DNA of 64,000 nucleotides from Cenococcum geophilum 1.58. Lineage: Eukaryota; Ascomycota; Dothideomycetes; Gloniales; Gloniaceae. The notes beneath the pieces are model-generated. The model was not told the DNA's origin and searched no databases. It worked only from the letters and a program-made list of their open reading frames with translations. Positions 2,385 to 64,000 of the stretch are shown here, one piece after another; position 1 is the stretch's first letter; each line of letters starts with the position of its first letter. The stretch spans positions 248,001 through 312,000 of the forward strand of contig KV748211.1 of assembly GCA_001692895.1 (NCBI GenBank), given 5' to 3'. The position numbers and the translations under genes were made by a program.

Positions 2385-3300
2385 GATGTCTAGACGTGCG
2401 GACGTTTATACAGGCATTTATATAGACGTTCGTATAGGCGTTCGTGTAGGTAATTAATTAATAAATCGATTAATTGTAGAGCCGTTCGAGTAGATAATTA
2501 ATTATATCAGTGCTGCGTGTTAGTAGAGCTTAGAGTAGAGTGTCGTGTAGAGCTGCGGGTAGAGCCTCGCGTAGAGTTTTTAAGTAGAGCTTAAGTAGAG
2601 CTCCGTGCAGAGCCTTAATAGAGCTTTAAGCAGAGCTTTAAGCAGAGCTTTAGTAGAGCCTCGTGCAGAGCTTTGAGCAGAGCTTTGAGTAGAGCTTTGA
2701 GCAGAGCTTTAAGTAGAGCTTTAAGTAGAGCTTCGAGTAGAGCTTCGAGTAAAGCTTCGAGCAGAACTTTAAGTAGAGCTTCGAGCAGAGCTTTAAGTAG
2801 AGCTTTGAGTAGAGCTTTGAGCAGAGCTTGGTTAGAGCTTTAAGTAGAGCTTTAATAGAGCTTCTCTATATAGACCTTGTATTTAGGCTTATTTTTAAAG
2901 GCCTTGTAAAGGGCTTTATATAGAGCTTTAAGTAGAGCTTTGTATAGGCGTTCGTGCAGGCGTTTGTGTAGACATTTATAGAGACATTTATAGAGACATT
3001 TATAGAGACGTTCGTATAGACAATTATATGGGCAATTATATAGATATTTAATTAATTAATTGTATAGGTATTCGTACGGGCAATCATGCGACATTTATAG
3101 AGCCGTTCGTAAAGACGATTGTATGGCGACTAATCGTATGGGCGTTCGTACGGCCGATTGTAGAACTTCCTAGTATATTAGTGCTGCATGTTAGTAGAGC
3201 TTTAGAGCTCTATATAGGGCTTTAAGCAGAGATTTGAGTAGAGCTCTAAGTAGAGCTTTAAATGGAGCTTCATGCGGAGCTTTTGCAGAGCTTTAGTAGG
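2385..3300. repeat. 12-bp-periodic minisatellite (two related units)
   Basis: Two units alternate. AGAGCTTTGAGT (variants AGAGCTTTAAGC, AGAGCTTCGAGT) runs about 2525-2875 and returns at about 2915-2945 and 3187-3300. GACGTTCGTATA (variants GGCGTTCGTGTA, GACATTTATAGA) covers about 2385-2455 and 2943-3150. Both keep a 12-bp step and match each other at about 8 of 12 positions, so they are probably one diverged family. In one frame the first unit reads Arg-Ala-Leu-Ser repeatedly without stops, but there is no start codon. A simple non-coding minisatellite is as likely as the remains of a tetrapeptide-repeat gene. Confidence 0.8.
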
Positions 3301-3689: not shown

Positions 3690-5666
3690 TGGGTATGCTT
3701 TTATATGGGAGTTGCTTTGGTGGTTATAGGTAGGACTTAGTCGGTACGGGTACTACTAGCGGTAGCGGCGGTCCGTAAAGTAGGCATCTAAGTTAGTTTA
3801 TAAGATTTATAGGTCCGTAATAAAGGCTTAAGTACTATTTAGCGGGTTTAAAACTTTGTACGTTATAATAGAGGACCGTAAATCATTAATAAGGCTAGTT
3901 AAGGTATCTGTAGGCTTATAATAGGCGTACTTATAGGGCTCTATTTCCTAGTAAGCTGTAATAAGTTTGTTATATAGGAAGTTATCTATTTAAAGCTTAA
4001 TATTAAGGCTGTATTATAGGTGCTGAAGGTCTTTAATAAGGATTTACAGGCACTTTATAGTCAATTTTTCGGTATTTATATTAATTACGGTCCGTAACTT
4101 AATCGCATTCTATTAGGTAAGGATATTACGCCTATATTCTAGCCCTTTAAAGTAGTTGCGTATAGCTTTATATAGCTTATTAAAGGGAACACTAAGGGGG
4201 TTACTCTTAAGGTTAGTATAGTAGTAGTTAAGAGCTAGGCTGTGTAGCATAGTAGAATAGGCTTAGTTAAATTCCTATTTAGGAATATTAGCCTTCTAAT
4301 AGAGGTCCGTAAAGATAATAAGTTTAAAGTTAAAGTTATCGTTTTTACCGCTATACTTAGATTTGTTAGTATAGAGCTTAGCTAAGTTAGCTAGCTCCTT
4401 ACCGTAGGTCTTTACTTAAGTAGGTAGTGGATCTATAACTTAGGTAGGTTATAGATCTATAGGTTAGGTAATAGGAGGGTTTTAGTCCATATTTTAGTAT
4501 ACGGGGGTATTATAGTCTGTAACTTAAGTACTAGGTATACTTTAGCCTATAAGATTAATTCTAAAATCGCTTAGGTTTATAGAATGAATTTAGTTAAGTA
4601 GGTTAGGTATAAGGCTAGTAATGCTATTAAGTTTAGGAGAAGTAAAGATTTTATTAGTAGGTTTGACCTAGTCTAGGATTTCCTCTTTAGTCTATTCCGT
4701 TTAGTCCTTCTCCTGTATTATATTGTATAAGGACTATATAATAGTAACTTATTTATTCTTTTTAACCTATATACCTTAGTAATATAAAAGGGTTCATAGG
4801 TTATAAATGGCAGTAGGGTTATAAGCCTTAAAAATAGCTTCCGTAAAGTCCGTAAAGTCTTCCTTATATTGCTCCTACAGGTCGTTATTTATAAGCTTAA
4901 AATATCTATATTTAAGGATTTTGTATTTAATATAGTTGTTAACGTTAGTTATAGACGTAAGGTTAACTCCTTATCTCTATTTCTCTTAACCTTTATTAAT
5001 CTACTTACTTATATCTGCTATACTATGTAGTATAGTATATAGCGGGTAGTAGTAGCTTGTAGTGGGTGGAGGAGGTTTTATAACGGTCCGTAAAATTAAT
5101 TAATAGGTCCGTAATAGTTTAAGAGGTCTTATAATAGTCCGTAAAGGCAATTAATAGGTCTATAATAGTTTATAGAAGGGTAAGAGGTTTCTGTAAAAGG
5201 TCTGGAGGGGTTTAAGGTTTAAGGGGATTAAGGATAGGGGTTTCCGTAAGGGTCTGTATTCGCGTTTATAAACTTCCGGTAAACTATATTAAGACTTAAA
5301 TAAGTATACAGAGTTAGTAATAGTCTGTAATCCCCTAACTTCTAACCTTCTAGTAGGTTGTACTAGGATTAAATGGGTGGTTGCTATCGTGTATCGCTTA
5401 GGGGAGGTATTAAGTAATTGCTAATCTATGCGCGCTTACTAATTAGTATTTATATTAATTTAATAATATAATTAAGTCATATCCAGGGGCACGAAATACG
5501 TATAGTATCGTATGCTCTTTTAGATAGTGGTAACTGTTAATTCTATTAAGGTAGACTATGTGGTTTATATACTAACGCGCCTCCCCCCTAATTAGTTAGT
5601 ATATAGGTAGTTAGTGCACCAAACGCGTAACTACGCGTTTAGTATACTATGTGCTGTAATTATATA
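3690..5666 (-). mobile_element. Element I: partial Ty1/Copia LTR retrotransposon fossil (H family)
   Basis: On the minus strand this matches the 5' part of element H (H coordinates about 21663-23630): LTR, leader and gag. Similarity ends near 3690 and no second LTR or pol part is seen, so only part of the element is left. Shared landmarks are the LTR with its ACGCGT hairpin and the many GGTCCGTAA (TTACGGACC) words. Heavily RIP-mutated and broken. Confidence 0.8.
5447..5666 (-). repeat. LTR of element I (about 220 bp)
   Basis: Reverse complement of the H LTRs at 21663-21881 and 27481-27699. It holds the inverted pair of ACGCGT sites at about 5612-5648 and the CCTCCCCCC block seen in H as GGGGGGAGG. 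Confidence 0.85.
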
Positions 5667-6308: not shown

Positions 6309-7029
6309 TCATCTCCTCCCTCTTTATTTTTGTCCTTAAAGATTCCTAATATCTTTAAGTTGTTTACTAGAGGTATAATATCCGTTTAATTAATTTAGTT
6401 AATATTATTACTTATTATACCTAAAGCAATTTCTTCTTCTTTAACTGCTCGTCACATTCGCACTATTGCTGTAATATTATCTTTTAGTAAGATTATACAG
6501 TCTCTATATTCTCGCTATTTAAAAGAGAAGTTAGTTTATATCGCGTTAGCAAACCTATCTTCGCAATAATTATCCTCTTACTTAGAGTACACTAAAGCGA
6601 ATATTTATTTATTCTATAATGTTCGCTCTATCTCTAATGCTAAATATATATAACCTATTACCCTTAGTAGTCGTCTAGTTCCCTAATTAATTTGTCTTAG
6701 GGTTTTATGTTTAATCTACTATTACATAACTAGATAATAAACTATCTATTACTCTAGCGGAGTTACGCTATTTTTGTAATATAGAATAGGAGGCTGCCAA
6801 TACTTAGCAACGGGCTCTTAAGTCTTACCTTACGGCGTCCGCTTGGTTAATCTGTCTTAAAAAGGTACGTAAAAAGGTTTATTTTAAAGAGTGGAAACTT
6901 ATAAAATAGGGTCTATAGGAACTTAGTAATAAAAGAAGAGATTCTCCTTTAACTAAGAAGGAAATAGATCTAAGTAGCTCGACAACTGCTCTTCTTAAGT
7001 CCCCCTTAGGTAACTCATTTTTTAGTAAT

Positions 7030-7256
7030 TGTTAGCAACTTAATCAATCGAGACATAAGCACGGCAAAAGGGTCGCGTAAGCCTGTACGATTGGATTGTC
7101 TATAAACGAGAATCTAAAGCTAAGAAAAGGAAAGGAGAAGAAGAGCAGCGCCGTTCAGTGTTTTATAAGATCTTCGCGTCACATAATCGCAATATGCGGC
7201 AATCTATGGCAACTTGCCGGTGCGAAGTTCTGCTAAGTTCTGCTAGTGCCGTAATA
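7030..7256 (-). repeat. 3' LTR of element A (227 bp)
   Basis: Pairs with 12788-13024 and with the B LTRs. Termini are TGTTAGC...GCCGTAATA on the plus strand, which is TGTTACGGC...GCTAACA in element sense. It carries short tandem copies of GCAGAACTTA. Confidence 0.9.
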
Positions 7257-7311
7257 TTACCCCCCCCCTCTAAAAAGCCTGCCCTTAGGCTTTGTCGCTA
7301 AAAGTCTTAGT

Positions 7312-7368
7312 AAGAGAATCTGATTAATTAGACAACTTTAACTACCGGTTAAAGTTCCTAGATATCTT
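7312..7368 (-). repeat. 55-bp palindromic unit, copy in A
   Basis: In element sense the unit runs AAGATATCTAGG ... TTAGATTCTT-like, with a central palindrome made of AACTTTAACCG and CGGTTAAAGTT-type arms. It lies between the end of pol and the polypurine tract. Related copies are at 38330-38384 and 43060-43114. Confidence 0.85.
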
Positions 7369-11400: not shown

Positions 11401-12787
11401 CTTCTTCTACTAACTAGCCGACCTAAATCAATATATAATATATTAATCCCTTTTAACCCTAGAGAGGAGTCTTCCTTTAGGGTTCCTCTTTTTCTAGCTC
11501 TATACTATCCTCCTGAATTAATAAAACCTTATTTATCTTTACCTTTATTAGGTAGTTCCTTATAGGGTAGCCTATTTAACTATATAAGAAGTAAGCTCCT
11601 TAATTGCTAAGGGCCTATATATAGGGGTTGCTATATATAGGCCGGGTATATACTAGGCCTATAGTAGGGGTAGCTGCGCAGCTAGCTACTAGGTTAACTA
11701 TAGGACTTGCCGATTATACCGGGGTACTACGGGCCGTACTTATAGTACTTATAGCCTAGTTTATAAGGTTTCTAGTTTTTAGCTAGTTAGCGCGTGCCTT
11801 AATTTAACAGAGGCCTTAGTTAATAGCTAGGTAATAGTCCGTAAGTTCCTTTAATATTTATACTATAGTATAAGCTGGTAATACGGCCCGCTATAGGTCT
11901 AGGGTAAGCTTATTAAAGAGGTCTAGTAGTAGGTCTTCCTAAGGGATCTAGGCCTATCTAGCTAGGTGTAAAAAGTGGGTTTAAAAGGCTGAAAAGGTCT
12001 CCATTGTTTTTATATTTAGGCTTTTATAGCTAAGGCGGGCGTTTTATACTTTAAAAGGGTCTTTATAAATAGAAGATAAGTATTTAATTATTTCTTCTTT
12101 AGAGATAAAGGGGTTTATTAAGTCTTTAGTGTATTGCGGGCGTAAATACGTCTAGGCGTCTTCGCCAGTACGGCCGAAAACGTAGGCTATTCTAGCTCAG
12201 GCGTTAGGGAAGTAGTCTATATTAACTTTAATCTTATCCTATAATTAAAGCTTCTAATTGTTAAATATAGGGTTAATTCCGTCTATAAGTAGCGGGGGAT
12301 CCGCAACCCTTACTAACCGCTTTAATACTATATAGACCTTAGTGGATCTACTAAGGCGCTAAAATAGGGCCTAAAGGACTATAGTAAGTCTTTAGTTATC
12401 TAATAATGACTTATTATTAGATATAGGGGTATCTCTAGCTTTAAGCAGCTCTTATAGTTATTTAATTTTAGTATTAGTAGCCGTAAGCTTCGCCTAGGGG
12501 GTTAAAACGTTAATTATTTCTTTATCTAAAGTATTTAAGGGTCCTATAGCTGCTTTACCTGCTACTATAGTTTATAGTATAGTGGTAGGGGTATTAGGTA
12601 ATTCTGGGTAATTTTTTTAGGGGTTCTAGTCTATGTATATCTTATAGGTCCTTTCCTTAGGGTTTTATTCTTTTTTTTAGGTCTTGTCCTTGTAGTCCTA
12701 GTAGTGTCCTTAAGGTCCTATTTTATATTCTTGTAGATATATTTAAGTTCCTTCTTAGGAAGAAAGAGTAGAGTAAGCTTTAGATAA

Positions 12788-13024
12788 TATTAGTGACTTA
12801 ATTAATTGAGATATAAGCACGGTAAAAGGGTCGCGTAAGCCTATATAATTGGATTGTCTATAAATAAGAATCTAAAGCTAAGGAAAGGAAAGGAGAAGAA
12901 GAGTAGCGCCGTTTAGTGTTTTATAAGATCTTTACGTTACGTAATCGCAAGATACGGCAATCTATAGCAACTTGCCGGTGCGAAGTTTTGCTAAGTTCTG
13001 CTAAGTTCTGCTAGTGCCGTAATA
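12788..13024 (-). repeat. 5' LTR of element A (237 bp)
   Basis: Mate of 7030-7256. It is about 10 bp longer because it has one more copy of a short TTCTGCTAAG-type tandem unit near its left-hand (outer) GTGCCGTAATA end. Confidence 0.9.
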
Positions 13025-16000
13025 GTAATCCTTTTTTATTAATATTACCTAACCTAATCTCTTTTAATACTCCTGTACCTTTCCTATAGCGTTTTTTAGA
13101 TTCTTTAATAGCTTCTAGGTAGTCTTATTATAGCCTATCTACTTTACTTTATATTATATTTTGTTGTTAATATCCTTATAACTAATAACTTTTAAAACTT
13201 GCTATTTATCTTCTTCTTATCCTCTATATATGTCTGCTTTATAAACCGGTGGCTTAATATTCCTATATACTAGCTCTAGCATCGCAATATACTATATAGG
13301 GTAGATTTTCATCTTAGCTAGTAGGTTTAACTTAAACGTAACCAGTAAAATCCTTTATTTAATTTTAAAAGGTCCTAGTCTAACGTAGTTTAACTTCTTG
13401 CTTAGTTATTAACTTTTAAAATTTTTGTATAGTAGCTATACTTTATCTCCCTCCTTAAGATCTAGTCCCTTAGATCTCTTAGCATTATAGTATTTTTTTA
13501 TTCTTTACTATACTACTTTAGCTGTTTCTATAAGGTTCTTATAAAGATCCATTAATATCTTTATCTCTTTTTAGCTATATTACTTATCTTCTTTACTTAA
13601 CGTAGCGATAATAACGTTCTTAGCTTGTACCTATAATTCGCCTTAAATAGTAATATACTATAGTGTTGCATTATATATAAACTATATAACTAGTAGTAAC
13701 AATACCTAATTATTCTACGCGTGATTAATATAGTGTTTTAGATACTATTCTATTATCTAATTTAATCTTTTTATTTAACCGTCTATCTACAGATAGTATG
13801 CGGTAAAAGTTACTACTCTAACTCCTTATTCTGCTAAAAATACCTCCTAAAATACTACTATAAATCTTAGATCTCTATCTAATATAATCTTACTTAATGC
13901 TCTATGTCTTATAAATACTTCCTTAATATAGATTCTAGCGACGTCTTCTACTAATATTTCTTCTGTATATACTATAAAATATCCCTACTTTATAAGCTTA
14001 TCTACTATTACTAAGATTACGTTATAATCTTATCTGGTAATAGAGTTTCTTAACTTTAGTAACTTAATAATAAAGTCCTATAATATAGCCTCCTATAGTC
14101 TCTTTAGTATTTTAATAGGTTGTAACCCTCTATATAGCTTATGCCTTATTAGTTTATTTCTCTAGCAATCTAGATATTCCTTTATAACTTTTCGCGCTAA
14201 GCCCTAAATCCCATTAATAATATACTTCTTTTAGAGTTTTAATACTAAGCCCATAGCTCTATTATATCCTTAAGTTAATCCCTTATAGAAATCTTCCATA
14301 AAGTGCTCTGCTATACTTCTTAGGATATACTTTACTTTCTAATTTTCGTATATATCTATTTATAAATCTTTTAGCTATACCTCTAAAATTCTTTATACTT
14401 AAAAGCTTTTTAATAACTTATAAACTCTTTCTAGTTCCTCTTAAGTTACTATAATCTTTGGATAATTATATCTAATTAATCCGTCTATATCTTTCTGCAG
14501 TAAAGCCCCTAATAGCTTTTCGTTATTTTATAGTTTAGCCTTTTAACTTAGAGCATCCGCTCTTATATTGTCTATACCCTTAGTATACTAAATCTTAAAA
14601 TAGTATTCTATAAGTATCTCTACCCATCTAACCTATCTCTAATTAAGTTTCTTTATTATTAAAAATCCTATTAGGTTCTTATAATCTATCTTAACTATAA
14701 AAAGTTTCTCTATACCTTATAAGAATGCTCTCTATTTTTTTAATACTATAACTATTTCTAATAACTCTTTGTTATAGATATTATAGTTTAATTCTAGTAG
14801 TGTTATTTTTTTAACTATAGTATACCACTGGGTGCTATCTATTTTAATATTTCTGTATAAAGCACGCCCCTAGTATATAATCTAATACGTCCGTTTTTAC
14901 GACCGTCTCTAATTCTAGTTAATAGATTTTAAGAACTAGCTCCTAGGTAAACAACTCTTTAACCTTTTTAAATAATTCTTTTTACTTTTCTCCCTATACC
15001 TATAGTTCTTCTTTCTTTATTAATCGCATAAATGGTTTAATATCCTTTAACCATTACGCTATAAACCTTCTGCAGTAATTGTAAAACCCTAAAAACAATC
15101 TTAACTATATAACATTCTCTAGTTCTTACTAATTTACTATAGCCTTGATCTTTTTAGGATCTATACTAAGTTAGCCTAGTTTAATAATAAATCTAATAAA
15201 ATTGGTCTTCCTAGTAAAGAACTTGCATTTCTTAATTGCTACTAGCATCTATTCTTCTTATAGTCTCTTTAAGACCCATTTAACGTATTCCCCGTATTCT
15301 TCCTTAGTTATTAAGTAGATAATAATATTATTAAGATATACCATAATAAATTTATCTAAGTATTTTCCTAATACGTTATTAATACGCTTCTAGAACATTA
15401 TTAGTGCGTTTATAAGCCTAAATTATATAACTAATAGTTTATATAGTTCTTCCTTTAACCTAAAGGCTGCCTTTTATTTATTGCCTTCCTTAATCCTAAT
15501 CTAATAGTACGCCTATCTTAGATCTATCTTTATAAAGATTTATGCGTTGCCTATTCTATCTTAGATTTCGCTAATTAAGGGTAAAGGATACTTATCCTTT
15601 CTAGTAATGCTGTTTAACTACCTATAGTTAATACACAGCCTTAGTTTACCATTCTTCTTTAGTACGAACAGTACTAGATAACCTACTAATAATTGCGATG
15701 GTCTAATATATCCCTTTTATAAGTTTTCCTAAATAAACTCTTTTAATGCTCTACCTTCCTCTTTAGTAAGCTTATAGATTGGAAAGAACCTTAGACTTAT
15801 TTCTAGTTCTAATTCTATTTTATAGTCCTATACTATATACTCTAACAAATTCTTACTTTTTAATAACCATAGTTTCTTACTATACTTATGGTATTTCTTT
15901 AGTATATAGCTTAATCCTTTTTCCGTCTCTTTATAGGTTACTCCCATTTAATACTATACTAACTTAGCTTATTATCGTATCTTGCGTTATTAAGTATCTT

Positions 16001-21662: not shown

Positions 21663-21881
21663 TATATAATTACAGCACCTAGTATACAAACGCGTATTTA
21701 CGCGTTCGGTGTACTAACTACCTATATGCTAACTAATTAGGGGGGAGGCGCGTTAGTATATAGACCACGTAGTCTACCTTAATAGAATTAACAGTTACCA
21801 CCATCCTAAAGAGCATACGATACTATACGTATTTCGTGCCCTGGGATATAACTTACTTATACTATTAAGTTAGTATAAACA
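21663..21881 (+). repeat. 5' LTR of element H (219 bp)
   Basis: Begins TATATAATTACAGC and ends GTATAAACA, next to the duplication ACTTA. Same length as its mate at 27481-27699. Confidence 0.9.
21681..21715. promoter_or_regulatory. ACGCGT inverted pair (hairpin) in the H LTR
   Basis: Arms of about 16 bp (AGTATACAAACGCGTA and TACGCGTTCGGTGTACT) face each other across a few bases. Each holds ACGCGT, the known core of the fungal MCB box bound by MBF (Mbp1-Swi6) at the G1/S transition. Copies are at 27499-27533 and 5612-5648. The hairpin is seen directly; a regulatory role is inference. Confidence 0.5.
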
Positions 21882-24800
21882 CTGATTAGTAAGCGCGCAT
21901 AGATTAGCAATTACTTAATACCTTCCCCCAAGCAATATACGACAGCGACTACCTGTTTAGACTCCTAGTATGACCTACTAAAAGGTTGGAAGCCGGGGAT
22001 TACAGAACTATTACTAACTCTATATACTTATTTAAGTCTTAGTACGGTTTACTAAAAGTTTATAGATGTAAATACAGACCCTTACGGAACCCCCTATTCT
22101 TAACCCCCTTAAACCTTTAACCCCTCCGGACCTTTTACGGAAACCCTTTACCCTCCTATAAACTATTACGGACCTATTAATTGCCTTTACGGACCATTAT
22201 AAGACCTCTTAAACTATTACAGACCTATTAATCGATTTTACAGACCGTTATAAGACCTCCCCTACCCGTTACAAGCTACTACCACCCGCTACGTACTATA
22301 CTATATAGTATAGCAGACACAAGCAAGTAGATTAATAAAGGTTAAGAGAAATAGAGACAAGGAGTTGACCTTATATCTATAACTAACGTTAACAACTATA
22401 TTAAGTACAAAATCCTTAAATACGGATATTTTAAGCTTATAAATAACGACCTATGGGAGTAATATAAGGAAGACTTTATGGACTTTATAGAAGATATTCT
22501 TAAAGCTTATAACTTACGAACCCTTTTACGTCACTAAGGTATATAGGTTAAAAAGGATAAACAAGTTACTATTATATGGTCCTTATATAATATAATATAA
22601 AAGGAGGACTAAACGGAATAGGCTAAAGAGGAAATCCTAAACTAGGTTAAGGTTACTAATAAACTCTTTACTTCTCCTAAACTTAATAGCATTGCTAGCC
22701 TTATATCTAACCTACTTAACTAAATTCGTCCTATAAACCTAAGTAATTTTAGAATTAATCTTACGGGCTAAAGTATACCTAGTACTTAAGTTACGGACCG
22801 TAATACCCCCGTAAACCAAAATATGGACTAAAACTCTCCTGTCGCCTAAGCTATAGATCTATAACCTACCTAAGTTATAAATCTATAACCTACTTAAGTA
22901 AAGACCTATAGTAAGGAGCTAGCTAACTTAGCTAAGCTCTATACTAACGAATCTAAGTATAGCAGTGAAAACGATAACTTTAACTTTAAACTTACTATCT
23001 TTACGGACCTCTATTGGAAGGCTAATATTCCTAAATAGGAATTTAGCCAAGCCTATTCCACTATACTACGCGGCCTAGCCCTTAACTATTACTACACTAA
23101 CCTTAAAAGCAACCCCCTTAGTGTTCCCTTTAATAAACTATATAAAGCCATACGCAATTACTTTAAAGGACTAGAATATAAGCGTAATATCTTTACCTAA
23201 TAGAATGCAACTAATTTACGGACCGTAATGGACAAGAACACTAAAAAATCAACTATAAAATGCCTGTAAATCCTTATTAAAGACCTCCGCTACCTATAGC
23301 ACGGTCTTAATATTAAGCTTTAAATAGACGACTTCTTATATAATAAACTTATTATAGCTTGCTAGGAAATAGAACCCTATAAATACGCCTATTATAAGCC
23401 CGTAGATACTATAGCTGGCCTTATTAACGATTTACGGTCCTTTATTATAATGTATAAAGCCTTAAACCCGCTAGGTAGTACTTAAGCCTTTATTATAGAC
23501 CTGTAAAACCCGTAAACTAACTTAGACGCCTACTTTACGGACCGCCGCTACCGCCGGCAGTATCCGTACCGACTAAGTCCCACCCATAACCCCCGCAGTA
23601 ACTCCTGTATAAAAGTATACCCCTATAGACAAACTAGCTAAAAGTGCTTTATATACGGTAAGGAAGGATATTAGTTTATAAAGTATACCTAAAAAGAACG
23701 TAATAAGTCTAAGAAGAGATTTAACAATTGGATTAACTAGTTTATCTTAGACTATAAAGGAAAGGAAGCGGAGGAGTCTCTTAATAAGTTAATAGAAGCC
23801 CTTATAATTGACTTTAACTTAAATACTTAAAAATAAAAGACCTTAGAGATATTCTTAACTACTTACGGACCTTTTATGGATAGCTAAGCCTTTAATATTA
23901 CGACCGTATTAGCCGACTATTCCTTTATACACTTAGTTACGCCTAAAAACTATTCCGTAAGCACCCCCGTTACGGACATTATAGATTATAAGCAGGACCT
24001 ATTTGCATATATTACCATAGAACGCTATACCCCTAAGGAATTCTACAGTGTTATAATTAATATAGGTGCCTCTAAGAAGTCTACTATAGGTTACGGATAA
24101 TACCTTGTATATAGGAATACTATAAATAATAATACAGACATTAATGTTACGTAAACTAGGGCCATAAACGTCTAGTTTGGTATTGGCTTAACCGTATTAA
24201 TTAGATTAGTAGCAGTTAAGACTCTAATTAGCCTAGTTAACTTCTACGTAGTAAAAGCAGACACCTCTTTCCTACTCTGCCTTATGGATATAGATAGGTT
24301 ATAGGTATACTATAATAATATTACGGACACCCTAATTGGCCCTATAACTGCCCTAGGAAGCAAGCACATTACCCTACTAATTATACAACAATTCGGACAC
24401 CCGTTCCTTATATAGGGAGAGACTTTACAAACCTACATTTAGGAATCTTTTAACTATAACCCGTACTACCTTACCAGTACTAAGATCCACCGCCTATACC
24501 GCCGTTTTAGCTACCTATTAGCCGAAAAGCTATATAAAGTCCTTAAACGCTCTAGATATAACAACGTTAATAGGAAGGCAATTAACCACCTAACTAAATA
24601 CTGCTCCTTCTACCAGAAATACAGACGTTCCCTAGGCCGATTTAAGTTTACTCTTTATAAAGACCTTAATTTTAACCACTTAGTGTACGTAGACATTATA
24701 TATATTAATGGCAGCCCAGTATTATATATAATTAACGAGGTAACCCGCTATTAAGCCGCCCGTTAGTTATAAAATATATCCGTAAAATATACTTAGGATA

Positions 24801-25700
24801 TTTTATGGACCTGCTAGATTAACACATACGTTAGACCCCCTAAGTATATTACCTATAACACTAGTAGGAACTTTATTAGTAAGGAGTTCCAATAGTATAC
24901 TACGGCCATAGCTATTTTAACAAAAGCCGTTCCAGTTAAGGCGCATTAGTCTATTAGGCTTATTAAGTAAGCTTACCTAGCTTTACGGAGAGCTTACTAG
25001 ATTATTATAAACGAGTGTAAGAACATTTAAAAGGAACTAGCTTTATAGATAGCCGTAAAAGCCATTAATAACACCGCTGGCCCTAACGGACTAGTACCTA
25101 CCCTCTTAGTTTACGGAGCTTACCTAAGAATAAGTAACCTAGGCCCTCCTACCCTATCTATTATAGAATGAGCAGCTGTAATATGGAAGGTAATAGCTAA
25201 AATAGTTAAATTACGGGCTAAACAAACTGTTAATAACGCTCTATACTACCGCAACGGACCTAATATAACCCTAGTATATAACCTTCCGCTTAATTCTAAA
25301 GTCCTTATATAGCGTAAGAGCGGCAACTAGACTAGACCTTATTGTTTACTAGCCGTAGAAAACGAGACGTACTACGTATAGCTTCCTAGCGGGCTAACTA
25401 GCTTCAGAAGCACGTCCGTAAAACCCTACTTTCGGCCTAAAAATACCTATAACGCTAAACCAGACAAACCAGAAGCGACTGCCAAATTAGACAAACTAGA
25501 AGCACCCTTACCTACCCTAGAAGTCCCCTAGAAACCTACTAAACCTACTAAACCTACTATAAAGCGTGGCCGAGGACGCCCCTAAAAGCACCCTATAACT
25601 AAGAACCCCATAATAAAGAATTACCTAACCTCTACAGGAATATCCGCAAGGCAATCTCCGCCTGCAGATATATTAGTTCTAGTATAGGAAACCCCTTTTA

Positions 25701-25781
25701 NNGACTTANNACGNAAAGANATTAACNGACTACTTAANAAGGGCGNCTTTACGNTTATAATNGAGANAGANNTTNNNNAAG
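25701..25781. other. Ambiguous bases (N) in element H
   Basis: Around 17 N are interspersed with called bases in the reverse transcriptase part, as in G and A. Confidence 0.9.
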
Positions 25782-27480
25782 GCGTCCGTATATTTAACTT
25801 ACGCTTTATTAATAAAATTAAGCACCCTAGTACTAATAAAACCTTTAAAAAGTCAAGGCTTATTATATAAGCTTATAACGACTAGGGAAAGGACTTAGTC
25901 CTTATATAATCGCCTATAATTTAACGGGTCAGTTAATAGATTATACTTGTGCTTACGCCTAGACTACAGTAAACTAAACCTATAGCCCTTTATTTACGGG
26001 ACATCTTATAAGCCTACGTACAGTCTAATATCTACCTAAGTAGGGACATCTTTATACAACTACCGCTTAAGCTTAATTTATAACCAAAAACAATTTTATA
26101 GGTTATAAAACCACTTTACGGAGTACTAGAAGCTAGAAACCACTGGTTTAAGATGTACTACTAGTACTACATCCGTAAACTTAGGATAGAGCAGTTAACC
26201 TATAACCCCTACCTCCTATACACCCTATTAAACGGCCTTGGTATTATTAGACTCTAAACAGATAATACTCTCTTTTTAGCGGACTAGACTTTTATAAATG
26301 CTAAAGAAACCGAACTCTAAGAAGCTAAGTTCCTAGTAAAGCCGCGAGAGCAGTTAACTAAGTAAACTCCGATTAAGTTTAACGGAGGCTTAATTACATA
26401 AAAGGGTAATTTAATCTAGCTAACTTAGGAACGCCAAGCTTAAAACCTAAAGCCCGTTATAGTAAAGCCTACGGACCTTATTAGTTCCCATAAAGAGACC
26501 TATAAGACCGTAAATATAAAGGATTAATACGCTGTATAGCGTGCAAGAGGCGCCTATATAGCCATAGTCTACCAACCTAAATCTATCTACGACTTATCCT
26601 TTACGGCCTAGGCAGTAGATCCGTAAGAAGAAAATATTAAGCAGCTTAATAAGCGCATTTAATAGCAAATTAATAACGCGATAAGAGGACTTACTTTTAT
26701 ACCACTAGACCTAAATTCCCTTAGCATAATAGTATTTACGGACGCCTCCTTTGCTAATAACAAAGACCTATTATCATAAATCGGCTTTATAATTGTGCTT
26801 ACGGACCGCAATTAGGACGCAAATATACTGTACTAGTCTTTAATTAAGTGTAAACGAGTAACCCGTAGTATACTAGCTTCTAAACTATATATACTAGCTT
26901 ATAGCTTTAATATAGCAGCCGTAATTAAATTAACGGTTCAGAAGATTCTATAACTAGAGTAGTTACCCCTAGTTTTATGTACCAATTTATAAGTCCCTCT
27001 ACGACTACCTAGTTAAACTAGGTATAATATAAGAGAAGAGGCTTATAGTCGACCTAATGTGCTTACGTTAGGCCTATAAACAACGTAAAATTACAGAGGT
27101 TAAATGGATCAGCAGCGGAGACAATCTAGCAGACGCTATAACTAAGGCAAAGCCGTGTTAAGCCCTTAAAACCCTAATTAATATAAATAAGCTTAACCTA
27201 AAGGTTATAAAATAGGTAGAGCGAGACTAACGGAGTATTTACGGTTTAGTTACGGCCCGCCGAAAGGCTGTATAGTTTATTTACGGCCCGCCAAAGGGCC
27301 GTATAGTTTATTTTACGGACCGTAAGTAGGACTTACGGCTAGCCTAGAGCACCGTTTGGAAGGCAGCCCAGAAGGCACCTTAGGAGGGATTTCCTATATA
27401 TTTCCTTACGTGTTTTATAGTTTTATTAAGGCAATTACGGAGGCTATATATAAGTGGTTTTATTTTCTAAATACCGCTAG

Positions 27481-27699
27481 TATATAATTATAGCACCTAG
27501 TATACGAACGCGTATTTACGCGTTTGGTATACTAACCACCTACGTGCTAACTAATTAGGGGGGAGGCGCGTCAGTATATAGACTACGTAGTCTACCTTAA
27601 TAGAATTAACAGTTACCACCATCCTAAAGAGTATACGATACTATACGTATTTCGTGCCCTGGGATATAACTTACTTATACCATTAAGTTGGTACAAACA
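27481..27699 (+). repeat. 3' LTR of element H (219 bp)
   Basis: Mate of 21663-21881. It ends GGTACAAACA and is followed by ACTTA. Confidence 0.9.
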
Positions 27700-34818: not shown

Positions 34819-34823
34819 CTTAT

Positions 34824-35002
34824 TGTCGGGAATGAGGCAAGCGGTCGTCACGTGTCGTCACGTGTCGCCGCGGCACTAGCGTGGTGAGGAACCTTAGGTT
34901 CCTTACCCACCCCCTAATTCTAAACAATAAGCTTTATTAACCAATATTACTATAACCCTACTCGAGTAGTCGTTATTGGTGAGTCACCCTGTGTGACCAA
35001 CA
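34824..35002 (+). repeat. 5' LTR of element D (179 bp)
   Basis: Begins TGTCGGGAATGAGG and ends GTGTGACCAACA, with intact TG...CA ends. It contains the 15-bp palindrome GGAACCTTAGGTTCC and CTACTCGAGTAG. Confidence 0.92.
34852..34873. promoter_or_regulatory. Tandem CACGTG (E-box) sites in the D LTR
   Basis: GTCGTCACGTGTCGTCACGTGTCG gives two CACGTG palindromes 11 bp apart; in the 3' LTR one is kept and the other altered. CACGTG is the core bound by bHLH factors; use by this LTR is inferred. Confidence 0.45.
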
Positions 35003-38000
35003 CTGATTAGTGGTTGAATATATAGTTAACTACAGAGCAGCTAGGTTATTGATAGAAGAGATAGTCTCGTGTAGGGGTGCTATATGCGCTTATATGGAAT
35101 GGATCCCGGCGATACTGTACTACCTTAGACTTGCGGAAAACTAGTAATAGAAGTGTTACTGAGTACTAGGAGATACTAAGTTGCGTCTATTATATAGAAC
35201 AATCACGTTTACGAAGATTTGGTTAAGTACTTTAGGTTAGAAGTGTTACTAAACCTAAGGTCCTAAGTCAACGTCTAAAACGCGTCGAATAATATCTTAA
35301 ATTGCCTACCTTTGGACAGCAAACCTACGAGATCCTATAAAACCGAAAATCCTACCTACCTTTGATGTACGACACCTCGTCGATTCTACCTACTATGGCG
35401 TTAACCTATCCGAAGAAGTACGAGAAAGATATTAACCCGGAGATATGGGATAGAGCTATAACTAACTTTGTAACTGCTAAGTAATAGGACCTAAATAGAT
35501 TCTTAGTATACCGTATAGAACACTATAAAGATAGCGAATATAATGATACCGCGCTATGGTATTGTATAAAGGAGGACTTTATTAGATGGATAAAGGAAAC
35601 ATAGGTTCCTATAAATAAAGATATTATATAGGACTTCTGTAACTTCCTTTAGGAGTATAGAGTATTTATCCCTATAGATGGGGGTAGTATTAGGGACAAT
35701 ATTTAGGAACACGTTATTAATGTAAAGGAAGAGTATAAATGGACTCTATAAGAGATTAAGTACTAACTATGCACTATAAAGAAGCTTAAATTACAATAGA
35801 ACCTAAGTAATATACTACTAGAGACGCGTTCTAACTCTATTGCTCTAGGCACGAGTTCTAATATTCCATATCTATCGCCTCTACCTCTGTCTTTAACTCC
35901 CCTGTATTAACTAGCTTAACCTATAGCCTTAATTAATAACCCCTAATAAGCGTAAGATCCCCTTATTTTGCGGTCTAACAACCTTTAAACTCCGCCAACT
36001 AGATCTATGTCACTATTATAGCCTATAATATAATATAGCCAAACACTAATTGGAGGCACCTTAAAAATGCTTATAGAGCTTATAAAGCTCTATTTAGAAT
36101 AGGAGAAGAAGTTTAGCGGAGAACTGTATAATATCCTTAATTTAAAGTTACGTATCTTCTATAACTGTTGCTAGAAGGTTGGACTAGAACCCAATTAATA
36201 CTATATTGCTTATTTAGTTATGCTTAAGGGCCGAGCTAGTACCTTCTATTATGATTGTTTAGTAGGAAAAGGATATAATTTTAACCGAATAATATATAAA
36301 ATAAGATGCTACTTTAAAATAGAGGAGAATAAGCAGCAGTATATGTTGGAGTGGAGAGAGACTACTTTTCTAAGAATTATTGCTATAAACCTAGGTGCCT
36401 CTCAACTTGATTGTCTTTAAAAGCTCTTTAATTAACTCTAGACAATTTAGTGTGGTTTATCCAAATTATATTAAAAGGACTTTAGCCTACGCGATTAAGT
36501 TATTAGCGTATGCTAAGGTATTAAAGAATGTAACCTTGCTTTCTTTAACCCTATAAGTACTTATAAAGGAGTGTATGCTTAATTAAGATCCTCTATTGGC
36601 ACCGCCCTATGCTCTTAAGAAGTATAGCAATTTAACGCCTAACTTTAACCTACTTTGATCAACCTGGCCGACTAATATAATTATAACTGGACTAATTAAA
36701 TATATGGTGGTCGTAGTAGGGGATACAGTAGAGGGTATAATTAACGTCGACTATAAAGCAATTGTGGAGGTCCTTATAGAGGTTTATTTTGTAACGATTA
36801 ATAGAAGAAATGCTACGTTTGTGAGAAGCTAAATTGCTAGTTAACTAGACACCCCCTTAATAGACGAAAGGAGGTATATAATAAGTTTCGCTAGAGCGCA
36901 CGAAACGTTAGAAACTAAGAAGTCACTATAGCCTACTTCTAAAGCTTCCTGGTTTAATATAAAGGCGAAGAAGATCTTAAGGGTGAGATTGACGAGGCTA
37001 AACAGCTCCTTATGGATATGGAAATTGAGGACTACTCTCCTAACTAATACTTTACCGAGTATGGTGAGGTAAATGGCGCATAAACCGTTGCTGTCCTTAA
37101 TGACTAATTTACGCTCCATTCTGTTATAAGGTTAGATATCTTTAATGAGCTAAAGGAAAGTTCCGCGTTCTCCTTTGACGATAGATACTCGGCGAACATC
37201 TTTTATGGTATTATGCCAGATACTAAAGCCGCAGGAGTATCTATAGTAGGAGAACCTTAAGTCCGAGCTCTTTAGCAGCTTAATAGTTCTGTCTAGATTA
37301 ACTAATTAATGGCAGGCTAATATACAATTTGCTTTAGCAAGGGTACTGTAATCTCTTTTAGCACAATTAAGGTCTAAACCCCGTTAGGATATATTACTTT
37401 CTACGTTATTCCCACAAATACTTTGTTCCTATTCTGCATCTAAGATATAGATAAATTAGGTGTTAAGCTTGATAACCTTGAGAATATGCTTGTTTAGGGA
37501 GATAATTGGGTGCCCGTTGTACGCAAGTGGGGTTACCCTTGGTTGCTCCTTTAATAGCTAGAAAGGAGCGTTGCTTAGAGTCACTTGACTAAGTTAGAGC
37601 TATATTAACTACATCGTCGTTTTAGCTACCTATCCGTTCACTGACTGCTTAGGGTTCTTTAACGAGCAGGTCATGAAGTTGAGGTTAAGGCGATTGAATA
37701 TTTTATAAAGTACTGCTATTACTACTAAATGAACTATCTTAATTGGGGACTACTCTATATACCTATTAATCTTCCTACCGCTAAGCTATTTATATTTGTT
37801 AATGGATCGTTTGCAAACAATAAAGATTTTAGCTCCTAGCTAGAATATGAGATTATTATAGCGAACGAATCTACTGGAGAGAATGACTTCACGATCTATG
37901 GTAATCTTATTTATTAGAGCTTAACTAAGAGTAAACGCGTTACTTAAAGCGTTCTAGCGTTAGAGATATATGGAATAGTTGGTGGAGTTAATATGGCAAT

Positions 38001-38329: not shown

Positions 38330-38384
38330 AAGATCTTATAGAACTTTAACCGCCGGTTAAAGTTGTCTAATTGGTTAGATTCTT
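38330..38384 (+). repeat. 55-bp palindromic unit, copy in D
   Basis: Starts AAGATCTTATAG, central arms AACTTTAACCG and CGGTTAAAGTT, ends GGTTAGATTCTT. It lies just after the RNase H-like end of D, in element sense. Confidence 0.85.
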
Positions 38385-38666
38385 GCCAAGAGCGCCATAC
38401 CTAATTAATTCGGGTGGCGGTGTGGAGTTCTACTAACGCTATTTATTAAGCTGGCTAATTAGGATTTTTTATCCCCGGGATAGAAAATCGCCATTGGCTT
38501 GGCTAAGAGCGGTAAGCGGAACTAACATCTTTGCACGAACCCGTATATCTACCTATACTACCTCTTCCCCTTTATTTCTTCTTCTTCTTCTCCTTAGCTT
38601 TGTATCTTTATATAGTAGCAATCTATAAGTGTATATAAATGGTAACTATAAAAGAAGAGTTGCTAG

Positions 38667-38845
38667 TGTTAGGAATGAGGCAAGCGGTTATTACGTGTCG
38701 TCACGTGTCGCCGCGGCACTAGCGTGGTAAGGAACCTTAGGTTCCTCACCTACCCCCTAATTCTAAACAATAAGCTTTATTAACTAACATTACTGTAACC
38801 CTACTTAAGTAGTCGTTATTGGTGAGTCACCCTGTGTGACCAATA
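38667..38845 (+). repeat. 3' LTR of element D (179 bp)
   Basis: Mate of 34824-35002, followed by CTTAT. Differences are mostly transitions. Confidence 0.92.
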
Positions 38846-38850
38846 CTTAT

Positions 38851-43059: not shown

Positions 43060-43114
43060 AAGAATCTAACCAATTAGATAACTTTAACCGCCGGTTAAAG
43101 TTCCTAAATATCTT
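43060..43114 (-). repeat. 55-bp palindromic unit, copy in C
   Basis: Plus strand AAGAATCTAACC ... AACTTTAACCG, CCGGTTAAAGTT, then CCTAAATATCTT. In element sense it has the same direction as the copies in A and D, again between pol and the polypurine tract. Confidence 0.85.
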
Positions 43115-44722: not shown

Positions 44723-44947
44723 TATTACGGCACTAGCAGAAAACGGTAGAACTTAGTAGTAGAACTTGGCAGAACTTTGCGGTTACGTAACTAGAGGACC
44801 ATATAAAAGAACCCTACTTTAACCGGCGCTGCTCTTCTTCTCCTTTCCTTTCTCTAGCTTTATATTTTCGTTTATAGACAATCTAATTATATAGGCTTAC
44901 GCGACCCCCTTGCCGTGCTTATATCTTAATTAATTAAGTCGCTAACA
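44723..44947 (+). repeat. 5' LTR of element B (225 bp)
   Basis: TATTACGGC...GCTAACA. Carries TATAAAA at 44802-44808, about 140 bp before its end, followed by a pyrimidine-rich CTTCTTCTCCTTTCC run; together they look like a core promoter. Confidence 0.9.
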
Positions 44948-46123
44948 TTATCTAAAGCTTTAACCACCCTTTCTTCCTAAGAAGGAACTTAAGAAAATAT
45001 CTATAGGACTATAAATAGGACAAGGACACAGAACAGGACCCTAAGGACATTACTAGAACTACAAGAATAGGACTAAAAGAAAAAGGATAAAACCTTAAGG
45101 AAAGGACCTATAAGACACGCACAGACTAGAACCCCTAAAGAAATTACCTAAAATTACCTAATACCCCTACTACTATGCCACAAAACATAGTGGTAGGTAA
45201 AGCAGCTATAGGACCCGTAAACGCCTTAGACAAAGAAATAATTAACGTTTTAACCCCTTAGGCGGAGCTTACCGCAGCTAATACCGAAATTAAACGGCTG
45301 CGAGAACTGCTCAAAACTAGAGACACCCCTATATCTAGCATTAACCTATTAAATAGACTTGCTACGGTCCTTAAAGCCCTAGCCTAACGTACTATATTAG
45401 CATTATCGCGGTCCGCGAAAGTCGTAGACCCCCCATTACTTATAGACGGGGCCGACCCTATATTTAATAATTAGAAGCTTTAATTATAGGATAAGCTCAA
45501 AGTTAATACGGACCACTTCCTTACCACTTAAGCTAAAATGGCCTACGTCTTTGGCTGTACTAGCGGAGATATATAGATACACCTACGTCCGCGATACGCC
45601 TAGGACTTAATAAAACCCTTCCTCTCTAAGGAAAAAATAACTAACTACCTACCCTCTATCTATAAGGACCCTTTTAGGGTATAAAACGCCTACCTTAGCT
45701 ATAAAAGTCTAAATATAAAAATAACGGAGACCTTTTCGGCCTTCTAGACCCGCTTTTTATACCTAGCCAGATAAGCCTAGATTCCCTAAAAAGACCTATT
45801 ACCAGACCTCTTTAATAAGCTTACCCTAAACCTATAGCGGGCCGTACTACTAGCTTTTACTACTATATAGACGTTAAAAGAACTTACGGACTACTGCCTA
45901 GCTATTAATTAAGGCCTCCGTTAAATTAAGGTATAAGCTAACTAGATAAAGGCTAGGAATCCCTTAAATTAAGCTATAAGGAATATAAGAACGGCCCGTA
46001 ATACCCTAGTATAACCCATAACGCCTACTATACCGGCCGCTAACCTAGCAACTAGTTATATAGCTAGCCCTACTATAGGCTAAGCGCTTACTCGGCCTAC
46101 CTATAGCGACCCCTATATATAGG

Positions 46124-46297
46124 TATCAGATAGTCTATATTCTCGGTGGCGTAGGACGTGCACTGGTTACGTATACGGGTCACGTATATTGTAAATATCT
46201 TTGTCTAAGCCAGGGGCCCTAGGTCAAGACATAATTAAGATCATTAATTAATCAACCTATTTTTATCAATAAATAGCTCTATATAAACTATCTAACA
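46124..46297 (+). repeat. 5' LTR of element E1 (174 bp)
   Basis: Matches the other three LTRs of the E family but lacks about 11 bp present near the middle of the E2 LTRs. Ends are variants of TGTCAGATA ... TATCTGACA. Confidence 0.9.
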
Positions 46298-49200
46298 GTT
46301 ATAAGCCCGGTCCGCCGACTTAAGAAGCTATTCAGCTATTAATCAATTATTTAAAGAAATTTTACCTCATCGTCAGACTCTAACACCTCATCGTCAGGAC
46401 GCAGACTCTAACAGAAATCCTACCTCAATTGTCACAGCATAAGATTCCATGAGATTCCACGAGATTCCACAAGACTCCACCTCAATCGTTAAAGGATAAT
46501 CCTAACGATAAGGACGATCCTAATAATAAGGACGATTTTGCGATAAGGACAATCCTAACAACGAATTCCATCTTAATTCCCATCTGCCTATTAGTCAAAT
46601 GACTCTACTAACGTCGAGTTTATCTACTACAATTATCCTTAATAAGCTAGAAGACTGGGAGTAATAAATCTGGCAACTATAAGCCCTTATAGATAAACAA
46701 ATTTGGGCCTATATTAACCCAGATAAGGAAGTACCTTAACGAGGTCTACTATAAGAACTACCCTATCTAGAAGTTATAGATTTTAATAAGAATGCAACCT
46801 TATATACACAGCTCTCGACAAATCAATAGAGGGTGTACAAGAACAGCAGATAATACTACGACTAGGATATAAAGTATTTCCTAAAACAAGAAGAGCACCT
46901 TTAAAAGATTCGCACCCAAATTACGTCTATAGTATTGATTTAGAAGAAGCTACTACTTGACCCTTCTCTTACAGTTAAGGAATGGATATCTCGGTTAAAG
47001 GAGAATATAAAACCTACTTCGTCGTTTATTAGGAAAAATATACAACACTAGTATATAGAAGCTCTTAAGGGGTTTAAACACTTATTAAAATTAAATTAGT
47101 GGTTAGATTAATAGGAACATATAATAGTACTAGGAGAGAAGTATAAGATCCCTTAAATATCTGATAGAATCTGCCTATAAGAATTAGCAGAAGTCGTTTA
47201 ACCCTTTAGCGACGCCTACTATATAAAGTATACTACCAAGTTAAATAACCCTTAGAAGTCAAGATCTTCCAAATACCGCAGAGTAGCAAAGGAGCTATAA
47301 GAAGGACTTAGAATACCCTTAAAGAAAGCCAATACTACTATAAGAGGGAGTACCTTTAATGTAGACTTCGCAGAGCAAGCTATAATGGATTACTTTAATA
47401 CTACTAAAGGTCTAGGGAAAGGAACCTTAGCATATACTAGACGCTCGAAGAGAGCCAGGTCACTAGTAGATAAGGAGACGTCCCATAAGAAGCTACTACC
47501 TATATACTTAGCGTGCGAGAAACAAGGACATTCCCTATAGGACTATTAGTATTTATTTAAAAACAAAAGACTCAAAGGAGTTACGATCGGAGATACTTAT
47601 ATTAAAATGGTGCTAAAGAAGGTAGAAAAGAATAAGGATTTCGCTAACTAAGTTATAAAGGTCAGACTTAAAGAATAGGAAGATAAGGCTTAATAACAAC
47701 AGGATAAGAGTTAGGAAGTTAAGATTAAGGGAAAAGCTAATACAATATTCCTAGAATCGTATTACACAGGTTAAATCCATCCACTAAAGCTATTAACTAT
47801 TCTTAACTTAGGAACCACTCTCTATATCTTTAATAACTTCTCTTGTTTCTATAACTTTAGGAAAGCTCTAAGACTTAAATATATTATCGCCGGTAGCTTA
47901 GAAGTGCCTATATTAGGCTATAGCAATATTACTATTTAAGTTATAAAACTAGATAAAAGCAAGGGAATCCTACGTCTTAAGGACGTTACCTTTTATACGG
48001 ACTTTAATATAAATCTAGTGTCGTTCCGTTTACTTTAAAAATGAGGGTACTACTAGAACAATAAAGGAGAGAATAATCTTCTAGTTTAAAAGGATAACTT
48101 AGTCCTATATTAAATGGAAGAACGTTATAAATAATAGACTATTAAATACGTCTGACTAAGAAGTCTATTAGCGTTTAATATAAGCCGACTACTATACTAA
48201 AGAAAGCGCAGAGCATCGTTAAGAGACGCTTGTTTAGATTTAAAAGGAGATATATATTTATAGTATTTCCGTTTAGGTTATCCAGGACCTATAAGCCTTT
48301 ATTATTTAAGTCTTAACGCCTTAAAAATTAAGCTTTAAGGCCTAAAGATAACGGAATATTAATATTGCAGCCTCGCTAAAATTAAGCGTTAGGTCTTATA
48401 AAGGTTCCTAAAATAGAAAATTAATAAACTCTATCTTAACCTCTATATTAACTAAACTAACCTTAAGGAAGCGCATGCTGGATTCGTATAAGTTATACTT
48501 ATCTATAACACTTTCTTAGGAAGATCCTTCCCATATTTTATAACGACGTATAGTAAGGAAAAGGAGACACTATAAGTGCTTAAAGATTTCATTTAGTAAA
48601 TTCGTCTAAGGTATAACCTTAAGGTTAATACTATTAAATCAGATAATAAGCTAGGGAGAAGGAGAACCCTTAAATAGCTACGGACTTAAGGGATTATATT
48701 TAAGCCTTCGGCGCTATATACCTAAGCTTAAAATAGTACCGCTAAACGCTTAGGGGGTATAATTATTAAGAGAGCATAAGTAATAAGAATTGCTGCTAAT
48801 CTACTACACAATCTATGGAACGAGATAGTTAACTATATAGTCTACCTTTAAGATTAAACACTACGGGAAAGTAATAGATGAAAATCGCTATATAAGAGGT
48901 TTTATACCTTCTTAGCTAATAAAAGACTAAGAAAACCACAACTAGCGCACCTAAAAGCCTACGGCTGTAGGGTGTACGCGATAACATCAGACGCCTAGCT
49001 AAAGAAGAAAAGGCTAAGTAAGCTAGATCCGCGAGCCTATATTAGCTATCTCGTCGGCTATAACTCTACTAATATCTATAGGATCTAGATCCCATATAAG
49101 GGTATCGTTATCTCTACTAGGGACGTTATCTTTAATAAAAAGATGTTCTTTAATAGTAAGTAAATAAACATCTTAAAGAACCTATACGCTAAATTAGACA

Positions 49201-49414
49201 CGCTAATTAAGGAGATTTAACTCCTTAATAACTAGACTAAGAATAAGGTCCTTTTAGAAGATAATAAAGAAGTATTTAAACCGTTAATTTAAGAGGAAGA
49301 TAACGACGTTAATAAGCTAGTTTAAACCTTTAATAAGTTAGCAGACCTTAAGCTTATAAGAGCTCTTGAAGATATATATTATACGCTACCTCTAATAAAA
49401 GAAGATGAAGAATC

Positions 49415-61635: not shown

Positions 61636-61860
61636 TATTACGGCACTGGCAGAAAACGGCAGAACTTAGTAGCAGAACTTAGCAGAACTTTGCGGTTACG
61701 TAACTAGAGGACCATATAAAAGAACCCTACTTCGACCGGCGCTGCTCTTCTTCTCCTTTCCTTTCTCTAGCTTTAGATTCTCGTTTATAGACAATCCAAT
61801 TATATAGGCTTACGCGACCCCCTTGCCGTACTTATATCTCGATTAACTAAGTCGCTAATA
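61636..61860 (+). repeat. 3' LTR of element B (225 bp)
   Basis: Mate of 44723-44947; TATAAAA at 61715-61721. Followed by TAGCG, then element C resumes. Confidence 0.9.
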
Positions 61861-64000
61861 TAGCGTATAGGCGCTAGCGGTCTTTATAGTAATAAGTTAA
61901 TATAGTAATAGGTTAACAAAGGTATTATATACCGTAGTAATAAGCTTATTAATTTTAGGAGGTAACTTTAGTTCTATAGTATAAAGCTAAGGTATAGTTA
62001 GCTCTATTATAGGTAGTATACCTAAGGCTAAATTTCGTACTTTTAGGATCGTTTATTATTAGAACTAATTATAGGGGTTATCTTTAGACTAAGGAAGGTC
62101 TTATAAGCGGCGTATTAGGCTATTAGGTTTAGTACCTTATACTTTTAGTCTATATACAATTTTAAAGTTAAAACTAGAGAGGAACTTATTCTAATATACT
62201 TAGTATTAGTTTAGCTACTTTATAGTTATAAAGTACTTAAGGTTGCAATAGTCCGTAAGGACTTTAGTTAGCTAGTTAGGCTCTACTAAGGAAAGTTCTA
62301 GTTAGAATTCTTTAAACGCTTATATAATTATAAGGAGTTCTTTATTATAGATCTTATAGTTATACTTTTATAGTATAAGCTTAGACGAGTAAAATGCAAC
62401 TAGGTAAAGGAAACCGTTATTACCTATCTAAAAGAGGACGCTTATGTTAATATAGTTTAAGGAGTTGGTTTTAAGATAGAGTTGTCGTCCTAGTATAAAG
62501 TAAGCTAGGATAGGTGCTTTGGTAAAGGCATTTTTAAGGTCTTAAAACGCCTTCTCGCATTTAGGCGTCTAGGTAAAGCGTAGGTGCGTTTTTCTTCCTT
62601 TTTTAAAAAGGCCCTTTATTTATATTATTGCTATAAGTAGTACTACTATACCTAAGAAGTTGTATATAAATTTCTAATAGAAGTTAGCAAAACTAAGGAA
62701 GGCTTATACGTCCTTAATATAGTTAGGGGCTTGCTATTTAGTAATTGTATATACCTTCTTAGGGTCTATATGGATACCCTTAGTAGTAACAATTAGTTTA
62801 AGGTATTTTACTTCTATAATTAAGAATTTATATTTCTTTAAATTAATATAAAGTCCTATATCCCTAAGGCGCTATAGAACCTTTTAAACGTGTTTGGTAT
62901 ACTTAGAAGGGTTATTACTATAAATAAGTATGTTATCTAGGTACGTAGAGCAGAAGTTATTAAGGTAGTTCCGTAAGGCGTTATTAATATAGCTTTAGAA
63001 GGTGCTTAAACCGTTATATACGCTAAAGGGTATAATAGTATATTTAAATTAGCCAAAGCGCGATGCAAATGCGGTTTTTTATTTATTACCTTCCTATATT
63101 CGAAAATAGTTAAAGGCGGCGATAATATTAAGCTTAGTATAGATTTTAGCTTAGCTAAGCCGCTTAAGGGTCTCTTATATAAGCGGTACTAGGTATTAGT
63201 TTTTAATTATAATAGCGTTAAGTCCTTTATAGTTAATATAGAATTAAATACCTTCTTTTAGCTTTTTAGCAAGAAGGATAGGGGCGGCTACTAGTAATAT
63301 ACTAGGATAAATAAACCCTTTATTAAGGTGCTTGTTAATATACTTTTATATAACTAAAAGTTCGTCTTTTAATATTAGGTAGGGTCTCTTATAAGGTAGT
63401 ATTTTTCCTTAATTAATATTAATGGTATAGTTATTAGGTCGATATAGGGGGAGTATATCTACACCCTTTTATAAGTATATATTAATAAAGTTATAGTACC
63501 TCTTAAGGAGGAGCTTGCGGAGTTCTTTATTAGTAAGTCCTTTTTTAAGTTTTATAAACTTCTTAAAGTCTAAAGGTAAAAGTCTATAGAGTTCTATAGG
63601 GGCGTTATTTTCTAAAAGGTTAATTATATCTATTCTATTACTATAAAGAACGTAGTTTTGTTCTTTATTAAACTTATATAGTTATAATTAAAAAGCTATA
63701 GCGACGGTCTAGCCTTTCCTACGTACTATATAGTAAAAGGCCGCGGCACTTATATAGTAGTAGTTAATTATAGGTAGAGTAATAAGGGGTTTCTTAGGTT
63801 AATATCCTAGTAAGTAAATAAAGGCGGTTAGGCTATATCCTAGGCAAGTCTCTCTATAGTATTTAGAGTTAAAGGTTGCTTCTCTCTTTTTCTAGTTAAT
63901 AGTAAGGTTATATTATTTAAGCTAGCTTATTCTAAGGATAATAGGGTAGTTAGTAAGTGGTGTAATATAGGCCTAAAGCTCTTCCTGGTGCCCGTTTATA

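Follow-up and report, generated by a model that had tools for sequence, protein, structure and literature searches.

The window analysed here, a stretch of 64,000 nucleotides from contig KV748211.1 of Cenococcum geophilum 1.58, holds LTR elements designated A to E. The original prediction had placed three palindromic units at 7312-7368, 38330-38384 and 43060-43114, and all three are present at these places. We refer to the unit as U1 and to a second palindrome in element D as P2; the features are as follows.

7021..7259, minus strand: 3' LTR of A; partner at 12779-13027
7312..7368, minus strand: U1 in element A (taken as Ty3/Gypsy-type), in the interval from pol to the 3' LTR, in element sense; 2 mismatches in the core
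34821..35007, plus strand: 5' LTR of D, direction presumed
38330..38384, plus strand: U1 in element D, perfect core; the LTR at 38664 begins 280 bp downstream
38453..38498, plus strand: P2 in D; its central 27 bp occupy 38463-38489 and depart from the pattern at 1 position, the outer limits being set by eye
38664..38850, plus strand: 3' LTR of D, direction presumed; by eye, the element is flanked by the 5-base repeat CTTAT
43060..43114, minus strand: U1 in element C (taken as Ty3/Gypsy-type), element sense, perfect core
61636..61861, plus strand: 3' LTR of B; B's 3' region is without U1
61862..64000, minus strand: pol part assigned to C (RVT_1, RNase H), separated from C's U1 by the apparently inserted element B

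U1 is about 54 bp long and has the same plan in all three copies. Read in unit orientation, it begins with AAGAT, continues into a 23-bp dyad core, AACTTTAACCG-S-CGGTTAAAGTT, and ends, after RTCTAATT, with RGATTC. The perfect 11+1+11 form of the core, AACTTYRACCGSCGGTYRAAGTT, is found in D and C; the core of A has 2 mismatches. The outer ends, described before as near-inverted, are unstable: the right end after GAT reads TCTT, TCTC, CCGT, TTGC or CTGC by family, and inspection by eye placed the inverted repeat of U1 in its centre, with no stable inverted pair formed by the ends AAGAT and GAT. A second stem considered in the right flank, ATCTAA/TTAGAT, was rejected as partly a product of C-to-T mutation, less mutated copies reading GTCTAATTGGTCGGAT. 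Palindromes with arms of at least 12 are absent from the window, and five simulated windows gave 0-1, so there is no excess; ORFs of at least 150 aa (table 11) were not found in the window either.

Read-through Pfam scans detected RVT_1 and RNase H in A, C and locus L010 (flank type F5). A additionally has an integrase zinc-binding domain and a Tf2-type SH3 match under its cut-off, and locus L021 (flank type F4) has RVT_1, RNase H, integrase zinc-binding, SH3 and chromodomain. Judged by these domains, A, C, L010 and L021 are taken as Ty3/Gypsy-type, the L021 family as a chromovirus. U1 lies between pol and the 3' LTR in all four families with a located pol, at varying distance, and it occurs in both orientations: sense in A, C and L010, antisense in L021. 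There the end of the chromodomain is near 4810 and the core occupies 4016-4038, with a G-run and the LTR further on; the unit is reversed together with its right side, and its asymmetric right flank is still intact. The claim that the units lie between the end of pol and the 3' LTR held for A and C; in D no pol was detectable. That all are in element sense held again for A and C, is presumed for D and fails genome-wide with F4.

Nor was the assignment of D to Copia supported. Its six read-through frames gave no retrotransposon domain, the one match being DUF2097 (E 0.11, below its cut-off); RVT_2 was absent from them, which is compatible with a heavily mutated or deleted pol. Near D-lineage sites there was none among the 6 RVT_2 matches listed on contig 1 (best 150 of 910 candidates), the nearest being about 16 kb away. 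The direction of D is presumed because its 3' region resembles that of F5. The D LTR at 38664-38850 holds a palindrome of its own, AGGAACCTTAGGTTCCT, with one central base. Elsewhere in the genome, the RVT_2 matches C8:1490554, C79:19991, C6:1530936 and C62:799985 lie in frames of 542-1637 aa without inside stops, and going by these long frames some Copia-type copies look little mutated.

The window has further repeats. Element B (44723-61861) appears inserted into element C and contains large tandem-like duplications in its interior (46128-49415 against 49419-52730, 86%; 52724-55045 against 55046-57355, 88%). Element E (21663-27699) has 219-bp LTR matches (94%) and no Pfam match in three plus-strand frames. 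A 12-base minisatellite with many imperfect, AGTAGAGCTTTG-like copies occupies 2522-3296.

Copy number, mutation and edges of U1

A search of the whole genome had been proposed along with the original prediction, and it established the core as a large genome-wide repeat. In the assembly containing the window (177.19 Mb, 162 contigs), the exact core with an N0-6 spacer was found at 1208 places, against 1 for the reversed-pattern control. Up to 3 mismatches gave 3400 matches (control 1), and a core tolerant of repeat-induced point mutation (RIP), in which C/T and G/A changes are allowed at variable positions, gave 3559 (control 1). The right flank alone matched 2798 times (1430+1368; control 0). 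As an independent check, contig 1 below 2.87 Mb has 56 right-flank sites, and 52 of them are touched by a RIP-tolerant core; in the same region the exact flank pattern is present at 52 of 75 RIP-tolerant cores.

RIP in ascomycetes shows a CpA-type C-to-T pattern. In 29 C-type copies, C-to-T change was highest before A (TCA 0.86, CCA 0.76, ACA 0.71, GCA 0.55) and was also high at TCG (0.55). Locus L086 has a less mutated core, AACTTCGACCGGCGGTCGAAGTT, and other copies have one arm altered; the common core has thus itself undergone mutation. It contains no CpA, and its present uniformity is therefore partly mutational, not selective. Exact matches to the common and less mutated forms numbered 0 in viral and prokaryotic contig collections, a result that is uninformative on other fungi, and a literature search found no description of such a unit in the titles and abstract openings of the entries listed.

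The sample of flanking contexts took in every one of the 49 exact-core sites on contig 1, a single site on contig 2 and best-match loci; L001-L004 were left out as duplicates before counting, and L025 was also left out of the regex-based collection of units. By flank, the 49 exact cores of contig 1 comprise A type (F1) 5, C type (F3) 4, the D lineage with sub-type F2 13 and D type F7 4, then F4 5, F5 3, F6 7, F8 1, F9 2 and F10 2, and one each of the single contexts L055, L067 and L074. The element type could be assigned from context at all but 7 of the 49, and these 7 count against the explanation favoured below; the F10 context gave no Pfam match above cut-off. Another 20 right-flank sites have no exact core: 17 match the RIP-tolerant core, the remaining three are two near-misses (L090, L091) and a truncated copy (L096), and the 20 include at least one additional context (L087, L101).

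Thirteen context representatives, hand-chosen and passed through the collecting regex, which partly imposed the invariance of edges and core, were compared in purine/pyrimidine (RY) coding: the columns are nearly invariant from AAGAT to GAT and near random outside. Inside the unit, deviation is confined to four columns on the left (1, 2, 4 and 4 of 13), one on the right (1/13) and the dyad centre (5/13), and in the 23-bp core of these chosen contexts, with transitions ignored, only the dyad centre varies. BLAST between unlike families gave a similar span, from about -23 to +38..+43 around the centre. U1 is thus a real, discrete, dyad-centred unit with sharp edges, in at least 13 flanking contexts.

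Shared cassettes and sites without U1

Loci L006 (D type) and L007 (F2) share 82% identity over 4.5 kb, yet they differ around U1. L016 (A type) and L024 (F2, D lineage) are 95% identical over -54..+45 with other sequence outside, and by eye the F2/A-type likeness continues through the G-run before the LTR. L006 and the F5 locus L010 are 76% identical over -37..+141 and unlike upstream, and F6 shows homology to A-type copies as far as about +49. Cassettes of about 100 and 180 bp that hold U1 are common to elements unalike outside them, which supports the idea of a unit passed between families; the directions of transfer we infer. A simple inversion of the whole cassette is unsupported, because the P2 half-markers of F4 read opposite to those of F5, relative to U1.

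P2 itself comes after U1 in some families. Genome-wide, with at most 1 mismatch allowed, it matches 1146 times on one strand and 1213 times on the other (control 0). Of the 23 P2 sites listed on contig 1 up to 2.97 Mb, 11 have a U1 core nearby, with 67-116 bp between the two starts; at all nine of these with a listed U1 direction, P2 lies on the right side of U1. The other 12 of the 23 have no U1 within 400 bp. An inner arm position of P2 is RY-complementary to its partner in 100 of the 100 first-listed copies (54 YR, 46 RY), and shuffling gave a mean of 50 and a maximum of 70. RIP changes stay within class (G-C to A-T), so the YR/RY split goes beyond RIP. The complementarity argues for a maintained dyad, although a number of copies is not a number of events and one or a few old double changes may lie behind it.

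Sister copy B is without the unit, as had been noted: about 20 other bases replace the longer unit-bearing stretch of A, so that the site is a replacement and not a clean empty site. With a B-type query U1 was absent in 40 of 40 scored matches (best 40 of 1011 candidates), that is, in at least 40 copies, nearly all with at least 118 of 125 bases matched (minimum 117). The B sublineage propagates without U1, and the unit is therefore not essential. In the C family, a joined-flank query gave no empty site in the best 40 of 671 candidates. The corresponding F10 query gave no gap-free full-length match in the best 40 of 82: the 239-base left flank was matched to base 234-237 in 36, to base 229 in one and to base 214 in one, and in 2 both flanks were matched across a roughly unit-sized gap. 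The right flank was matched as a separate piece in 3 of the 36, and in at least one copy with no right-flank match (C3:5588267) U1 adjoins. Comparison of filled sites for a target duplication revealed no excess over 60 shuffled pairings (9 contexts, k=3-8), a comparison whose power is limited by old, mutated copies.

Explanations for U1

What would be expected of a conserved cis element of LTR elements was found in part: the position between pol and 3' LTR is there in the four families with a located pol, a single orientation and retention in all amplifying copies are not. We tentatively favour, with somewhat less than even confidence, the view that recombination moves U1 as a swappable, non-coding 3' cis cassette of about 54 bp built around a dyad core. 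Its hosts are several Ty3/Gypsy-type families together with D, an LTR lineage in which no pol was detected; U1 sits in their 3' regions and would have spread mainly by being copied within them. Co-resident elements would exchange 3' cassettes via homologous recombination or template switching, and it is this exchange, not transposition of its own, that would move U1. The dyad core, being the same on both strands, would be the working part, as a hairpin or as a site for a dimeric protein.

The main rival, and a serious one even though we consider it less likely, is the tiny mobile element of the original prediction: U1 as a very small, non-autonomous, MITE-like and nearly all-palindrome element that made several independent jumps and was then amplified as a passenger. 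MITEs are short, non-coding and of high copy number, have inverted repeats and sit inside other elements in both orientations. U1 is like them in each of these respects, and its sharp edges in at least 13 contexts, its differing distances to the LTR and its varying presence between sublineages point the same way; even in antisense units the right flank shows the same degree of conservation as the core, which recent spread of a mobile element would explain equally. It differs from MITEs in that its palindrome is central, with neither conserved terminal inverted repeats apparent at the edges by eye nor a target-duplication signal in the 9 contexts, and in that only the 3' region of LTR elements is affected in the 4 resolved families. 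The missing empty site among the best C-family candidates may also tell against jumps, and the sharing between A and D lineages reaches far past the unit, more than a jump of U1 by itself would bring about.

The proposed structured 3' signal would make U1, and P2, sense-strand hairpins of the genomic RNA that serve packaging, dimerisation, priming or 3'-end formation. There is precedent in Ty3, whose genomic RNA, according to PMC11381356, has 3' cis signals including the 3' part of a bipartite primer-binding site, and for which dimerisation via a 6-nt palindrome near the 5' end is proposed. The likeness lies in the Ty3/Gypsy-type hosts, the cis signals at RNA ends and the use of a palindrome; by comparison, U1 is near the 3' end, longer, in several families, sometimes antisense and sometimes missing. 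A 211-nt 3' stretch of D does fold into a 10-bp U1 hairpin and a 12-bp inner P2 hairpin, and the complementarity in P2 agrees with this, but the z-score is only -1.81, 6 of 200 shuffles fold as well, and the arms of U1 in 20 loci change mostly one at a time. Rfam (cmscan, 8 loci) gave no match at U1, the one match at E <=1 being MIR2670 off U1 (E 0.11, 26.9 bits against a cut-off of 117). The antisense unit of F4 with its intact asymmetric flank and the thriving, U1-free B sublineage weaken the claim further; we regard it as rather improbable, and a strictly sense RNA signal fits worse than a swappable cassette or a mobile element.

The LTRs of B hold half of the less mutated U1 core, as ACTTCGACCGGCG at 61729-61741 and its counterpart ACTTTAACCGGCG at 44816-44828; this 13-mer stands 24 bp after TTACGTAAC, just after a TATA-like box. 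A core match of at least 13 arose in 1 of 3000 simulated LTR sets, a figure to be read as that of a post hoc observation, and we take the 13-mer as a lead only. A DNA-level dyad that a dimeric protein might bind, in a promoter, insulator or silencer role and possibly with its origin in the promoter of an LTR, would suit the perfect, orientation-independent core with its one-base centre, these 13 bases and a TTACGTRA-like sequence upstream of several U1 copies, but the 13-mer is confined to one of the six LTRs examined, and this explanation is quite improbable.

Two further comparisons concern the hosts and the repeat as such. LARDs are non-autonomous LTR elements; D resembles them in having LTRs without detectable pol, but differs in its short 3' cassette common with pol-bearing families, the LTRs of D and A being unlike by eye. 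Palindromic repeats of organelle genomes, which the titles of PMC7218506 and PMC4524435 place in mitochondrial genomes, are comparable as short palindromes; U1, by contrast, is found in retrotransposons that bear RIP mutations, in an assembly of 177 Mb.

As a swappable 3' cassette, U1 could possibly act as a helper-recognition signal, given that the D lineage carries an F5-like or an A-like cassette, as if able to switch helpers. A more specific form of this idea, which we think has little chance of being right, makes the U1/P2 cassette a shared recognition tag: LTR elements exchanging it would gain packaging or priming by one another's machinery, the pol-less D-lineage elements would change helpers in a swap from F5-like to A-like, and either orientation would work via the dyad core. 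If unrelated families do swap short control cassettes, this would help to account for the continued amplification of elements that have no enzymes of their own. It is also a caution that a 3' 'family marker' need not track family descent. With thousands of copies, the genome could allow such swaps to be traced event by event.
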